A stretch of 64,000 nt of DNA from Cyanobacteria bacterium FACHB-471 (lineage in GTDB: Bacteria > Cyanobacteriota > Cyanobacteriia > Elainellales > Elainellaceae), in NCBI GenBank assembly GCA_014695345.1, contig JACJOC010000077.1, forward strand, positions 62,001 to 126,000. Reading direction: 5' to 3'. Within the stretch, counting starts at the first letter, position 1. Each line of letters opens with the position of its first letter. The position numbers and the translations under genes are program-made. The notes beneath the pieces were generated by a model that saw only the letters and a program-made list of their open reading frames with translations, was not told the origin of the DNA and did not search any database. Of this stretch, positions 14,271 to 18,770 are shown piece after piece.

Positions 14271-15677
14271 TTACTCGGTTTGGTTTTTCTGAGATGGGGC
14301 TGCTTTTAATGCAAAGGAATCTGTGGGGAGACGGGTGGCTCGCAGAATGATCAGGCTGAGAATGAAGAGCCAGATGAAGACGATGACGTAGGCGGTGAGC
14401 AACGCATTTCGGACTCGCTGCTCGATTCGGCGAACGTAGTCTGCGCGAAGGTCAACCCTTAGTCCACCAACGACTTGTCCAGCAGAGTTTTGGATTGGTC
14501 CACAAATCGAGAGCCAGCTACCAAATTCGTCGGTGTAAATGGAGCGGGTAAGGGTTGGCTCGATTAGCCCTGCGGCTAACCAATATTGAGAAGTAGAATC
14601 AACGGTGTAGGGCTGACGATATTGAGTTGCGCTGACTGACTGACTGGCGGTGTCACGGGCAGGATCTCTAAAAGAGTCGCCCACCCAAATAATCTCATTA
14701 GAATTAGGATTTCCAGTTGGCGCATAGGTGCGTGGGAAGGCGTTGGGAAGAGCTGTGTTTACTTTTACAAGCCAGTCTTGATGGTTTTGGTAAAACTCCT
14801 CACTGGTTGAACTGGGGGGGGAGTAGGCGATCGCCTCAAACTCGTCTCCGTTAATTCCTACCAATCCCACATTCAGCGCATCCTGCAATTGTCGCTCGAC
14901 CCATCGTCTAGCCCAACTCGAAGCTGAACTATAGAGCCAGAAACAGGCTCCTGTCACCAGCAGCATATTAACCAGAACCGTCGCTAATACGACCGTCCGT
15001 TTTGCTTTTTGTCTTGCCTTGAGAACTAGTGCCTCTGCTTCGTTGCTGCTGTTGATGTACTGAGTTTGCAGTGGAGTTGGTTTGGGATCTTTGTTTACTC
15101 CTTGCATGAGCCACTGCTCTGCTTCTTGCAGGTCATGACCGCGCAGCAAATAGCTGCTGTTTTGGGCTTTAGACTGCCATTCGAGTGCCCGCATCAACAG
15201 CCGAGTGTGGGCACGAAGGTGAACCAGATCCGTATCCATTGCCTGGATCAATTCTTGCAAGGCGGGGTTAAAGTCGTCCGTTTCGCGGAAGAAGAGCCAG
15301 TTGTGGCTGGCGATCGCCGGATGCAGTAGTTTTTGGTCAAACCCTTCTCGCCAAACAATTGGCAAAAACCGCTTGTTGCACTCCGCCGCATAAGTCACCT
15401 CATCCCGACAGACAGCCGAAGCGACGGAATCTGGACTGATTACAAAAATGAAGGTGTTGGCTGATTCGATTCCCCGCTGGATTGCCTTCCACCACTCTTC
15501 GCCTTTGTAAATGTCCTCCCAATCGACCCAGGGGGCACGGTTAAGACTTCTGAGTGCAGCGTCTAATTTTTCGACAAACGCTTTATCTCGACGTGAGTAG
15601 GAGATAAACACGTCGTTTTGAGGTTTGATTTGGCGCAATTTGGCTTGCGCGTCAGTGGAAGGTGTACTGGTGGACAT
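14271..15677 (-). CDS. Membrane TIR-domain protein with periplasmic Cache-like sensor
   Basis: A 468-residue protein with an uncommon architecture. Residues 20-150 are a bacterial TIR domain: NDVFISYSRRDKAF (beta-A, box 1), WVDWEDIYKGEEWW (BB loop), FIFVISPDSV and C90-RD-E93; E93 is in the position of the catalytic glutamate of NADase TIRs. Residues 153-211 form a helical linker (HTRLLMRALEW, LLRGHDLQEAEQWL, TPLQTQYINSS) also recognisable in the AAA-WD40 protein at 57449-61438. TM1 is at 228-249. The region 255-420 should be periplasmic and ends in a Cache-type strand set (EFGSWLSICGPIQNSAGQVVGGLRVDL). TM2 is at 426-446. This implies an outside sensor controlling a cytosolic TIR. AGGGG precedes the ATG by 8 bases. 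It is a single gene with an 18-bp palindrome upstream (15780-15797). Domain identities are good; the signalling role is inference. Confidence 0.85.
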   Translation of the reverse strand: MSTSTPSTDAQAKLRQIKPQNDVFISYSRRDKAFVEKLDAALRSLNRAPWVDWEDIYKGEEWWKAIQRGIESANTFIFVISPDSVASAVCRDEVTYAAECNKRFLPIVWREGFDQKLLHPAIASHNWLFFRETDDFNPALQELIQAMDTDLVHLRAHTRLLMRALEWQSKAQNSSYLLRGHDLQEAEQWLMQGVNKDPKPTPLQTQYINSSNEAEALVLKARQKAKRTVVLATVLVNMLLVTGACFWLYSSASSWARRWVERQLQDALNVGLVGINGDEFEAIAYSPPSSTSEEFYQNHQDWLVKVNTALPNAFPRTYAPTGNPNSNEIIWVGDSFRDPARDTASQSVSATQYRQPYTVDSTSQYWLAAGLIEPTLTRSIYTDEFGSWLSICGPIQNSAGQVVGGLRVDLRADYVRRIEQRVRNALLTAYVIVFIWLFILSLIILRATRLPTDSFALKAAPSQKNQTE

Positions 15678-15901: not shown

Positions 15902-16795
15902 CTATAAATGACCTGCTAACCAGGTTTCCAAGTCTGCCAGAGTGCTGAAATCTAACAACGCTTCCCCCAACGTCTCAAGCTGCTCCAGTGTAAGAGACTG
16001 AATCTGTGTCACCACTGTTGGGGGAAGGGTGCCCATGCGACGAGTGAGTTGTTTTAGGATTAGCGATCGCCCCTCTTCTTGTCTGCCTTCTTGTCTGCCT
16101 TCTTGTCTGCCTTCTTGTCTGCCTATCCGCTCACCTTCTTTCAAAATCTCCTGATACCAGGGTGATTCTTGCAGCACTGCCATATCCCACCTCATGATTT
16201 GCCTGACGACTTCACTACCCAACACAAAGCTAGCAAAAAATGCTAGTAGAGATTCCAACTCAATTAGCTGCTCATCTTGACGGAGTAAGGTCAAAGCCTG
16301 CTGTACTGCGGAAACTTCTGCCCCTTGCTTCAATACGGGCACAAAGGGTAGTAAAGCACTTAAGGACTGCTCAAATACGATCGCAACTTCACCTTCCCAG
16401 AGGTTGATGACTCGGTAGTCCTGATAAGCACGGATTCCCAGAAAGTTGGATTCAAAGTGATTGGCAATGGTCACCGTTGCAGGGGGAGGAAGAATATTGA
16501 CCAGAACCGGATAGACGGGCAAAGCGTACTTTTCTTCTGCAAGGGCTGCATAGGTTCGCATTCGTAATGGCAGTTTGGAGGTGTAGCGCAACTGCAACTC
16601 GTTGAGCACCAGAAACTGACCGTGAATCGGACTGCTCACTTTCACCAGCACATCATTTTCTCGGCTGATCCATTGAAACTCGGAACCTAGAATTTCCTCA
16701 GCAACGACATCGGGTTGCTGTGTCACCCATTGCACCCAGGCGGTTGGAGCTAACCCAATTAGCCGCTTACCGCCGATGTCTGCTTTTTTTGCCAC
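15902..16795 (-). CDS. Rpn/DUF4351-type PD-(D/E)XK-related protein
   Basis: A 297-residue member of a multicopy cyanobacterial family often annotated as Rpn family recombination-promoting nuclease/putative transposase, with a C-terminal DUF4351. The N-terminal part has the family pattern DIGGKRLIGLAPTAWVQWV, FLVLNELQLRY and LPLRMRTYAALAEEKY-LPVYPVLVNI. The C-terminus (about 235-297) is the DUF4351-like LILKQLTRRMGTLPP...LETLGEALLDFSTLADLETWL. Between them is a repetitive charged linker (RQEG x4) made by a 12-bp tandem repeat. I chose GTG at 16795: GGAG lies 5 bases upstream and the family begins here, whereas the longer frame to 17008 would overlap the 3' end of uvrC by 152 bases. Probably cotranscribed with uvrC (61-base gap). 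Catalysis has not been verified from sequence. Confidence 0.75.
   Translation of the reverse strand: MAKKADIGGKRLIGLAPTAWVQWVTQQPDVVAEEILGSEFQWISRENDVLVKVSSPIHGQFLVLNELQLRYTSKLPLRMRTYAALAEEKYALPVYPVLVNILPPPATVTIANHFESNFLGIRAYQDYRVINLWEGEVAIVFEQSLSALLPFVPVLKQGAEVSAVQQALTLLRQDEQLIELESLLAFFASFVLGSEVVRQIMRWDMAVLQESPWYQEILKEGERIGRQEGRQEGRQEGRQEEGRSLILKQLTRRMGTLPPTVVTQIQSLTLEQLETLGEALLDFSTLADLETWLAGHL
16076..16123. repeat. 12-bp tandem repeat x4 inside the DUF4351 gene
   Basis: Four perfect copies of TTCTTGTCTGCC. On the coding (minus) strand they encode GRQE-frame repeats (RQEG units) in the linker before DUF4351. Unit gain or loss would keep the frame, since 12 bp equals four codons. Confidence 0.95.
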
Positions 16796-16856
16796 AGTTG
16801 CTCCGCAGGATGGTGATGCAAATGAAAGTAAGGGTAGGATGCTCTGATCGAACGGA

Positions 16857-18770
16857 TTACGAAACAGATTCTTCTGTAGAGGCAGAAGATGCTGAGGGGT
16901 GGAAGTATTCGTAAATCTGTTGGGCCATGCGATCGCCAATTCCTGGTACCTCAGCAATTTGTTTAGGGCTGGCTTCGCGCAGGTAGTCGATTGAGCGGAA
17001 GTGGGCAAGCAACTGCTTTTGGCGATAGTGCCCCAGTCCGGGAATTTCGTCGAGGCGGGAGCGTCTCATGCGATCGCTCCTTTGCTGACGGTGGAAGCTA
17101 ACTGCAAATCGGTGTGCTTCATCTCGCAGACGGCGCAAAAGCTGCACTCCGGGCTGTTCTGCATCGGTGAGTAGTGGCTTCGATTCTCCGGGTAGGAAGA
17201 TTTCTTCGCGCTGTTTGGCTAGACTGACGACCTTTACGTCTTCCATCAGGTTCATTTCGCGCAGCACTTCTACGACAGCCGAAAGCTGTCCTTTGCCACC
17301 GTCGATCATGACCAAGTCGGGGAAGTCAGGATTGCCAACTCGCTTTAGATTTGGGTCTTGGGCATAGCGGCGGAATCGTCGCCCGATGACTTCTGCCATA
17401 CTGGCGAAGTCGTCAGAGTGTCCTGCTGTCACCGTGGGATCTTTGATTTTGTAGTGACGGTAGTGCTGCTTGGCGGGTAAGCCATCCACAAACACGACCT
17501 GAGAAGCAACCGCATCGGAACCCTGGATGTGAGAAATGTCGTAGCCCTCAATGCGGTGGGGCATGTCGGGCATGTCTAACAATCCTGCCAGGTCGAGCAT
17601 GGCTTGATTGTTGCGGTCAGCAAAACGTTGGGTTCGGGCTAGCTCATATCCGGCGTTGCGCTCAACCATTTCGATCAGTTCTGCTTTGCTTTGGCGGTGG
17701 GGAACGATGATTGTCACCTTACGCCCGCGTTTCTCGGAAAGCACGTCTGCCAGAATTTCTGCGTCGGGCAGTTCGTGCTGTACCAAAATCTCTGAGGGAA
17801 TTTCTACCGGATCAACGGTTTGGAAGTGTTCCTCTAGTGCCCGTTGCAGGATGGCTCCGGGTGTACCTGACTGAGCATCTGCCACAAAGCCCAACCGCCC
17901 CACTAGACGACCTGCCCGAATTTGGAAAAGCTGAATGCAGGCGTGCTGATCGTCTGCGACGAGGGCGATCGCATCTCTCGATACGGTGTCATCTGACAGC
18001 GACACTTTTTGATCTGCCCCCAATGATTGCAGTCCGCGAATCTGGTCGCGCAGTCGTGCCGCATATTCAAAGTTCAAGTCTTCAGCGGCTTTTTCCATTT
18101 GCGCCGACAGGATGTCTTCTAGCTCCTGCGTTCGCCCCTGGAAGATCATCGCCACTTTTTGCATGATCTTGTGATAGTCCTCAGGCGAAACCAGCTTTTG
18201 ACACACACCCGGACAGCGCCCCATGTCGTAGTTCAAACAGGGACGGTCTTTGAACAATGGCTGAGGACGCTGCCGCAGCGGAAAGATGCGTTTCACTAGA
18301 TGCAGCGTTCGCCGCAGTGAGCCGACATCGACATACGGGCCGTAGTAGCGATCTTGCCCTTTGCCCTTTTGCCGTCTACGCGTGATGAAGATGCGCGGAT
18401 ATTCTTCTGACCAGGTAATGCAGAGGTAAGGATATTTTTTGTCATCTTTCAGCAACACGTTGAAGTGAGGCTGGTGCTGCTTTACCAGATTGGCTTCTAG
18501 AGCCAGGGCTTCGGCTTCGGTGTCGGTGACGATGAATTCAATTTCGGCAATCTGCATCACCATTAGGGCGATGCGCGGATTGTGGTCGTGGTTATCCCGA
18601 AAGTAAGAGCGAACTCGCGATCGCAGCTTCTTCGACTTGCCGATATATAAAATGTTGTCGTTTGCGTCGCGCATGAAATAGACCCCCGGCTCTGGAGGAA
18701 TTTCTTTGAGGCGCGTCTCCAGACGTTCGGGGTCTTTAACTAGAGTGAGGGGCTTGGGAGAAGTAGTCAC
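16857..18770 (-). CDS. uvrC: UvrC, excinuclease ABC subunit C
   Basis: A 637-residue nucleotide-excision-repair nuclease that makes the 3' and 5' incisions around a UvrB-bound lesion. Domains in order: GIY-YIG nuclease (about 25-105, [20 protein letters not shown]), a cysteine cluster ([13 protein letters not shown]), UVR/UvrB-binding helices ([17 protein letters not shown]), the RNase H-like 5' nuclease ([31 protein letters not shown]), and two HhH motifs ([27 protein letters not shown]). The start is GTG, placing [17 protein letters not shown] before the first conserved block. The DUF4351 gene follows 61 bases later on the same strand. Confidence 0.98.

Follow-up and report, generated by a model that had tools for sequence, protein, structure and literature searches.

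The 64-kb stretch of DNA analyzed here (hereafter the window) carries a gene whose product consists, in this order, of a TIR domain, a helical linker, a transmembrane helix (TM1), a Cache-fold domain and a second transmembrane helix (TM2), an architecture of which, taken by itself, we are highly confident. The Cache-fold domain is homologous to the sensors of cyanobacterial kinases, and in the family to which the protein belongs the glutamate at the TIR catalytic position and the spacing of TM1 are conserved and the genes are under purifying selection. We give an even chance to the protein being a one-component transmembrane receptor in which a sensor and a TIR NADase are held together in a single chain.

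TIR domain and Cache-fold sensor of the window protein

The open reading frame encodes 468 residues from an ATG start, with no internal stops, in a genome of 7.15 Mb (118 contigs, estimated completeness 99.87%) whose named relatives are Leptolyngbyaceae MAGs and Oculatella sp. LEGE 06141. The coordinates given in a preliminary description of this DNA proved exact, to which we add that the gene lies on the minus strand, and the TIR domain and two membrane helices named there are borne out by Pfam and by hydrophobic stretches at residues ~229-249 and ~427-446. The parts of the gene are as follows, with the positions of D52 and S26 of the TIR having been verified by index alongside those of E93 and V89.

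14271..15677, minus strand: whole gene, 468 aa (TIR, helical linker, TM1, Cache-fold sensor, TM2, short tail)
15246..15614, minus strand: TIR domain, residues 22-144, from the TIR_2 profile and fold matches
15399-15401, minus strand: E93, the catalytic-position Glu of the TIR (residue index checked)
15411-15413, minus strand: V89, at the Trp site of WxxxE TIRs (residue index checked)
15033..15227, minus strand: conserved helical linker, residues 151-215, with predicted helices 151-169, 180-195 and 202-214
14931..14993, minus strand: TM1, residues ~229-249, from hydropathy, inside predicted helix 202-274
14403..14930, minus strand: Cache-fold sensor, residues ~250-425, from the model and kinase-sensor homology, extracytoplasmic by inference
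14340..14399, minus strand: TM2, residues ~427-446, from hydropathy and the model
14274..14339, minus strand: short tail, residues 447-468, ending near the HAMP start of kinase relatives

Pfam TIR_2 matched residues 23-144 (E 2.3e-25; 89.9 bits against a cut-off of 28), and ThsB_TIR matched the same protein with 25.7 bits (cut-off 21.2). The TIR models of a defence library that matched (SAVED-TIR, Aga TIR, and ThsB) covered the TIR only, with one reaching residue 172. As the TIR part was poor in the full-length structural model (pTM 0.42), the TIR was folded with its linker alone (215 residues, 5 rows; mean pLDDT 75.6, pTM 0.61), and in this model E93 is placed in helix 88-99. The top structural match by VIA-align was the SPARTA TIR-APAZ structure 8qlo (Z 16.9, 2.2 Å over 130 residues), followed by SARM1 (9mw2, Z 16.4), with SPARTA and SARM1 rows tied at the top; Foldseek likewise matched the model to TIRs. 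The comparison with NAD-cleaving TIRs that had been proposed therefore yielded superposition on both of these enzymes, but TIRs further down the list included TRR-2 (Toll-related, Z 15.4), plant RUN1 (15.0), IL-1RAcP (14.6), and the non-catalytic MyD88 (14.3), and because non-catalytic TIRs match too (Z 14-15) the fold alone is no proof of catalysis. A profile built from eight TIRs of the family found 58 PDB sequences at E ≤ 0.01, of which the best was Cat1 (3.1e-9).

The residues expected of a TIR NADase are retained in part. Glu93, D52, and S26 are shared by all 48 TIR-linker proteins (14 Cache-linked, 19 labelled WD40, and 15 other, these labels being a crude motif count, as L042 is labelled other yet is a WD40 protein by Pfam), so that the earlier assignment of E93 to the catalytic-Glu position holds in all 14 Cache-linked TIRs and beyond them. 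By spacing and motif the three residues map to E208, D167, and S140 of AbTir, each of which is described as required for NADase activity (PMC11374754). AbTir R151, described as required in AbTir and in TcpC alike (PMC11374754), maps by spacing to residue 36 or 37, where the family has no conserved Arg. The Trp of the WxxxE motif is absent from all 48 TIR-linker proteins examined, and residue 89, four before the Glu, is Val in 13 and Ile in one of the Cache-linked TIRs. The same source reports that AbTir W204 of this motif is required for 2'cADPR (PMC11374754, citing Manik et al.), that W204A abolished AbTir NADase activity, that TcpC is active despite the same Trp change and yields non-cyclic ADPR, and that conservation of the Trp is weak among TIRs that are non-catalytic or that make non-cyclic or other products (PMC11374754).

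The SPARTA sequence aligned to the family has Glu in the E93 column and lacks Trp in the Trp column, whereas Cat1, the best PDB sequence match, carries Trp at the WxxxE site. SPARTA is an NADase for which E77A served as the catalytic-mutant control (PMC10474274), and E77, although it belongs to a different SPARTA from the one aligned, is probably the same site as E93, as judged by residue count. Given the absent Trp and the TcpC and SPARTA precedents, release of ADPR would be expected if the TIR is active, and the residues suggest that an ADPR-releasing NADase or a non-catalytic scaffold is likelier than a synthase of cyclic ADPR or another signal. The nucleotide-signal synthase entertained in the preliminary description has consequently lost ground, as the Trp tied in print to cyclic ADPR is Val or Ile in 14 of 14 proteins. 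This replacement, the W204A effect in AbTir, the missing R151 counterpart, and the Trp of Cat1 were all counted against the NADase reading itself.

The region between the two membrane helices had been described as Cache-like, and residues 255-420 do model as a Cache domain by pLDDT, Foldseek, and VIA-align rather than as an unrelated fold. Mean pLDDT is ~75 over residues 251-420, falling below 50 at 337-353, and the model comprises a helix (202-274) running from the linker through TM1 into the domain, further helices, five strands (313-320, 329-334, 381-383, 386-396, and 402-411), and a helix (412-448) that enters TM2. A long N-terminal helix is given as a Cache hallmark (PMC4822843), and the model shows one as an extension of TM1, together with a beta sheet and a last helix that leads into TM2. 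The best Foldseek match was a formate-bound chemoreceptor domain (8py0, E 7.8e-6), with weaker rows for LOV, PobR inducer-binding, and T4 antiholin domains, and VIA-align placed DctB first (Z 12.7), with CitA at 12.2 and DcuS at 11.2; judged from their titles, its best 50 rows are sensor domains of receptors, complete receptors, or engineered citrate sensors. No Pfam Cache model matched the window protein up to E 10, and the cut-offs of dCache_1, sCache_3_3, and Cache_3-Cache_2 were reached by no scanned relative, the nearest values being E 0.041 for dCache_1 in one of six members and, as the best score, 16.0 against 27.7 bits in L083. The name Cache is thus based on the fold and on kinase-sensor homology, and the domain models as a single Cache fold from a family without a Pfam name. 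As the K+R counts of the flanks are ambiguous on topology (5 in the 29 residues before TM1, 3 in the 13 after it, and 4 in the 14 before TM2), we infer from the kinase relatives that the sensor lies outside.

Family, TIR-linker proteins, and kinase-sensor relatives

A search of other genomes for the same domain order, as had been suggested, brought the number of full-length TIR-linker-TM-Cache-TM members to 13 including the window gene. At least 12 occur among 388 sampled genomes of the class, in four family-level groups (rows L074-L085), a count obtained from the 30 of 80 profile matches that were fetched, so that more members may exist, and the 13th is from Leptolyngbyaceae MO_188.B28. A whole-protein search of 98 genomes gave full-length matches in six, the window's own included, and a scan of genome contigs with two narrow patterns, which says little on breadth, gave four loci; 150 stretches of viral contigs matched a pattern and none encoded a relative. 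Most genomes that carry a TIR-Cache gene have one copy. Mean pairwise identity over the 13 rows is 69% for the TIR, 60% for the linker, and 38% for the sensor, and three congener pairs have dN/dS values of 0.03-0.14 across TIR, linker, and sensor (0.06-0.14 for the sensor), values that are rough as dS exceeds 1 in 5 of 9 comparisons. The 13 full-length members and the low dN/dS indicate that the combination of domains is more than chance.

Individual sequences deserve comment. The congener genes L070 and L071 differ by a dS of 0.11 in the TIR as against 1.45 for the linker and 0.50 for the sensor, a pattern suggestive of recombination or gene conversion in the TIR part. Genome G288 has a second Cache-linked TIR (L110, 56-1363) that breaks off inside the sensor and is either decaying or misassembled; we excluded it from the 13-row alignment and counted it among the 14 Cache-linked TIRs in the TIR tree and in the spacing analysis. 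L086 was rejected as a member, as the sequence following its internal TGA reads as a HAMP/PAS-type protein.

The preliminary description noted a single gene, to which we add that TIR-Cache does not stand alone, as a TIR-linker usually precedes a membrane helix: 46 of 48 distinct TIR-linker proteins from the retrieved loci (the exceptions being L006 and L039) have a hydrophobic stretch, defined as mean hydropathy ≥ 1.6 over 19 residues, no more than 70 residues past the linker. The figure is 32 of 34 with the Cache members removed, against 0/34, 0/34, 0/29, and 0/27 for control stretches of those proteins, although the set was gathered by similarity to the window protein with TM1 in the query and some bias is possible. 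Pfam scans of ten TIR-linker proteins found WD40 in seven, CHASE2 in two, and no named C-terminal part in one. CHASE2 is described as an extracellular small-molecule receptor domain (PMC8195603), and L004 (also L029; G000 C76, ~4.6-6.2 kb), a TIR-linker-CHASE2 protein of 611 aa (CHASE2 E 1.1e-54, TIR_2 6.2e-27), would thus be a second receptor of the TIR-sensor type in the same genome as the window. TIR and CHASE2 also share one frame in G001, in G002 (where it is broken), in G011, and in L054 of G022, which has three TIRs. The window's own genome (G000) has 29 TIR_2 matches, 27 of them over the cut-off, and 18 CHASE2 matches; an internal TAG interrupts the strongest of its TIR matches, on C63. 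L028 (4873-8892) encodes 1339 aa that by reading comprise three tandem TIR-linker units, then a hydrophobic stretch and WD40-like repeats. The Cache members differ from their WD40 and CHASE2 paralogues, with which they share TIR, linker, and membrane helix, in the C-terminal part, in forming a TIR group of their own, and in their linker-TM spacing. Linker and TM1 are 15-17 residues apart in all 14 Cache members (sd 0.6), whereas in 32 other TIR-linker proteins the membrane helix lies 10-51 residues from the linker (sd 10.1). In the 13-member alignment none of the 83 columns across residues 198-280 (the last linker helix, TM1, and the first sensor helix) is gapped, compared to 50 of 131 for 281-380 and 3 of 52 for linker residues 146-197, but the TIR (0/126) and residues 412-450 (0/39) are also gap-free, so that this feature is not peculiar to TM1. 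The fixed spacing fits a rigid helix that would carry a signal from sensor to TIR.

The sensor profile found matches of any architecture in 52 of the 388 sampled genomes (E ≤ 1e-8). Pfam scans of seven of the 20 non-TIR sensors in our tree identified a kinase domain in L011, L088, L091, and L103 and no kinase or other named output domain in L009, L093, and L095, and the HAMP model passed its cut-off in L009, L088, L091, and L103 and fell short of it in L011, L093, and L095. The window's own genome encodes two of these homologues, L009 and L011. L009 (1429-2529), L089, L093, and L095 are sensor proteins of ~340-370 aa with a HAMP or HAMP-like part and a common C-terminal tail. The HAMP/histidine-kinase receptors (such as L088, L091, L011, and L009) share a homologous TM-sensor-TM unit with the TIR-Cache proteins, but in the relatives TM2 continues into HAMP with a T-R-P-like motif and the output follows TM2, whereas in TIR-Cache proteins the output precedes TM1 and the chain stops near the HAMP start, within ~5-25 residues of the HAMP-entry point in those compared. 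The window protein has no hit to a HAMP or kinase domain, and its tail is of ~22 residues. At the sequence level the TIR-Cache proteins resemble kinase-type sensors in which HAMP and output have been lost and a TIR-linker has been added ahead of TM1. All 14 Cache-linked TIRs fall on one side of one branch in the unrooted TIR tree (99/99), and 13 TIR-linked and seven non-TIR sensors form one 20-row group in the sensor tree (100/99). The best sensor tree has two changes, one change is found in 8% of 200 bootstrap trees, and the supported branches force one, counts that fit either one or two origins of TIR-Cache.

Gene neighbourhood

The neighbours of the TIR gene in the window encode SecA, a dihaem cytochrome c, a GNAT acetyltransferase, a DUF4351 protein, and UvrC. 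Congeners keep most of them, and none is conserved across the 13 loci compared, several of which are represented by only 8-12 kb and whose neighbours were identified in part. A conserved operon across the family was consequently rejected, in keeping with the earlier argument against a multi-gene defence operon. There was no sign of a defence island within the window, and membership of a Thoeris system was rejected for it, as none of the neighbours is ThsA-like. A search for STALD effectors in the window's own genome gave no matches, as was also the case for control genomes.

Some neighbour clusters extend beyond a genus: DUF4351 (four genomes), chromate transporter (three; L066, L108, and L109), CHASE2 (three), FecR (two), aldehyde dehydrogenase (two; Pfam, L109), and a cluster of which the L064 member carries Calx-beta and PA14 (two). 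The DUF4351 gene of the window (15902-17008) adjoins the TIR gene and is retained by congeners; L107, which belongs to another family-level group, has a DUF2887-DUF4351 relative beside its TIR-Cache gene. L108 (7533-8564) and L109 (9531-10121), both of one genus, have a chromate-transporter gene immediately upstream of the TIR-Cache gene and on its strand, and a local operon is possible there. CHASE2 receptors occur near TIR-Cache at three of the 13 loci (L106, 6610-8910, and L073, 2274-4190, both adjacent; L107, 3851-5761, at ~3.2 kb), having a histidine kinase output once and a nucleotide cyclase twice, and a FecR-domain gene is found at two. A TIR-WD40 gene adjoins the TIR-Cache gene in L066, and a TIR/AAA_35 cluster lies ~3 kb from it in L105 (13330-18853; G279).

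Proposed mechanism and alternatives

If the protein is a one-component receptor, its periplasmic single-Cache domain would bind a small molecule, which to judge from the modelled fold could be an organic acid, amine, or amino acid. Binding would shift TM1, which is predicted to form one helix with the cytoplasmic linker, and the shift would change the packing of the N-terminal TIR domains of neighbouring subunits. The resulting TIR assembly would switch on cleavage of NAD+, with ADP-ribose a likelier product than a cyclic isomer, and may thereby lower NAD or send an ADPR-type signal. A broader proposal, to which we give somewhat less than an even chance, is that cyanobacteria possess modular receptors in which a TIR-linker-TM chassis is combined with Cache, CHASE2, or perhaps WD40 parts, with an external ligand gating a TIR NADase in a Toll-like wiring, and with kinase sensors having had their output moved to the other end.

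Several known systems share features with this arrangement. Thoeris ThsB has the TIR domain in common, and TIR-Cache adds membrane helices and a sensor and has no ThsA-like neighbour, so that the wiring is, as the preliminary description held, unlike that of Thoeris or TIR-SAVED, with a Cache-fold sensor set between two membrane helices. SARM1, the TIR of which was among the closest in fold, is a eukaryotic protein with ARM and SAM domains that senses NMN/NAD. Animal Toll-like receptors, which signal through adaptors, have an external sensor, a membrane helix, and a cytoplasmic TIR, as here. Their ectodomain is, however, of the LRR type and the TIR follows a single TM helix (PMC7075850), whereas the window protein has no Pfam LRR hit and has instead a Cache-fold domain and two TM stretches. 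SPARTA TIR-APAZ resembles TIR-Cache in TIR fold, in the aligned Glu, and in the lack of Trp at that column but differs in having a short Argonaute partner and in being activated by target DNA (PMC10474274). The closest precedents in wiring are caspases: in Trichodesmium an N-terminal metacaspase is joined to a CHASE2 domain that sits between TM helices at the C-terminus, and the protein was interpreted as a receptor facing outward with its effector in the cytoplasm (PMC3501461), and caspase proteins (EACC2-caspase) are described with variable C-termini that include CHASE2 and TM helices (PMC8195603). In these, as proposed for TIR-Cache, an N-terminal cytoplasmic effector is combined with an external sensor past a TM helix, although the domains are caspase and CHASE2 rather than TIR and Cache, and the wiring principle is thus known in cyanobacteria. 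A TIR-Cache or TIR-CHASE2 receptor was not found among the open-licence papers listed in our searches, and the whole word TIR is absent from the main text of PMC4822843 on Cache domains.

The principal alternative is that the receptor is non-catalytic, its TIR docking as in animal Toll-like receptors so that clustering recruits other TIR proteins of the cell, to which any enzyme activity would belong. We consider this possible but rather unlikely: the lack of the WxxxE Trp throughout the Cache-linked and other TIR-linker proteins and of a conserved Arg at the R151 position speak for it, as does the abundance of possible partners among the TIR_2 matches of the window's own genome, but Glu, D52, and S26 are nevertheless kept in every TIR-linker protein, the top fold matches are the NADases SPARTA and SARM1, and the Trp is lacking in the aligned SPARTA and dispensable in TcpC. 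Loss of function at the other end of the protein, with the sensor region reduced to a membrane anchor that no longer binds ligand, is very improbable. The sensor is the least conserved long part, with little more than half the mean identity of the TIR, and member L037 lacks the usual Y-T-D-x-x-G-x-W stretch; yet sensors of receptors usually diverge faster, dN/dS in the congener sensors is low, and Y296, W302, G333, D334, R341, P394, and G404 are invariant across the sensor in all 13 members.

It is also conceivable, but improbable, that the protein is an envelope-sensing anti-phage or abortive-infection receptor, in which the sensor or the membrane surroundings would detect infection and the TIR would deplete NAD so that phage growth stops. 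TIR NADases are common defence effectors, the defence-library TIR models match, and other TIR genes lie near two of the 13 loci (L066 and L105). These points are countered by the matches of the library, which cover the TIR and extend to residue 172 at most, by the SecA, UvrC, dihaem cytochrome c, GNAT, and DUF4351 genes that surround the gene in the window, by the lack of any neighbour kept across the family, and by low dN/dS in a gene present in four family-level groups, mostly as one copy per genome.

The sensor domain can be produced by itself, which makes ligand screening feasible, and with TIR-Cache proteins it can be asked directly whether TIRs lacking the WxxxE Trp yield ADPR instead of cyclic products. 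Should NAD cleavage by the TIR be controlled by the sensor, bacteria would own ligand-gated TIR enzymes that read the outside world. Such a protein would provide a single-protein model for how a membrane receptor switches a TIR on, and it would widen the function of TIR domains from the intracellular sensing of phage to environmental signalling.
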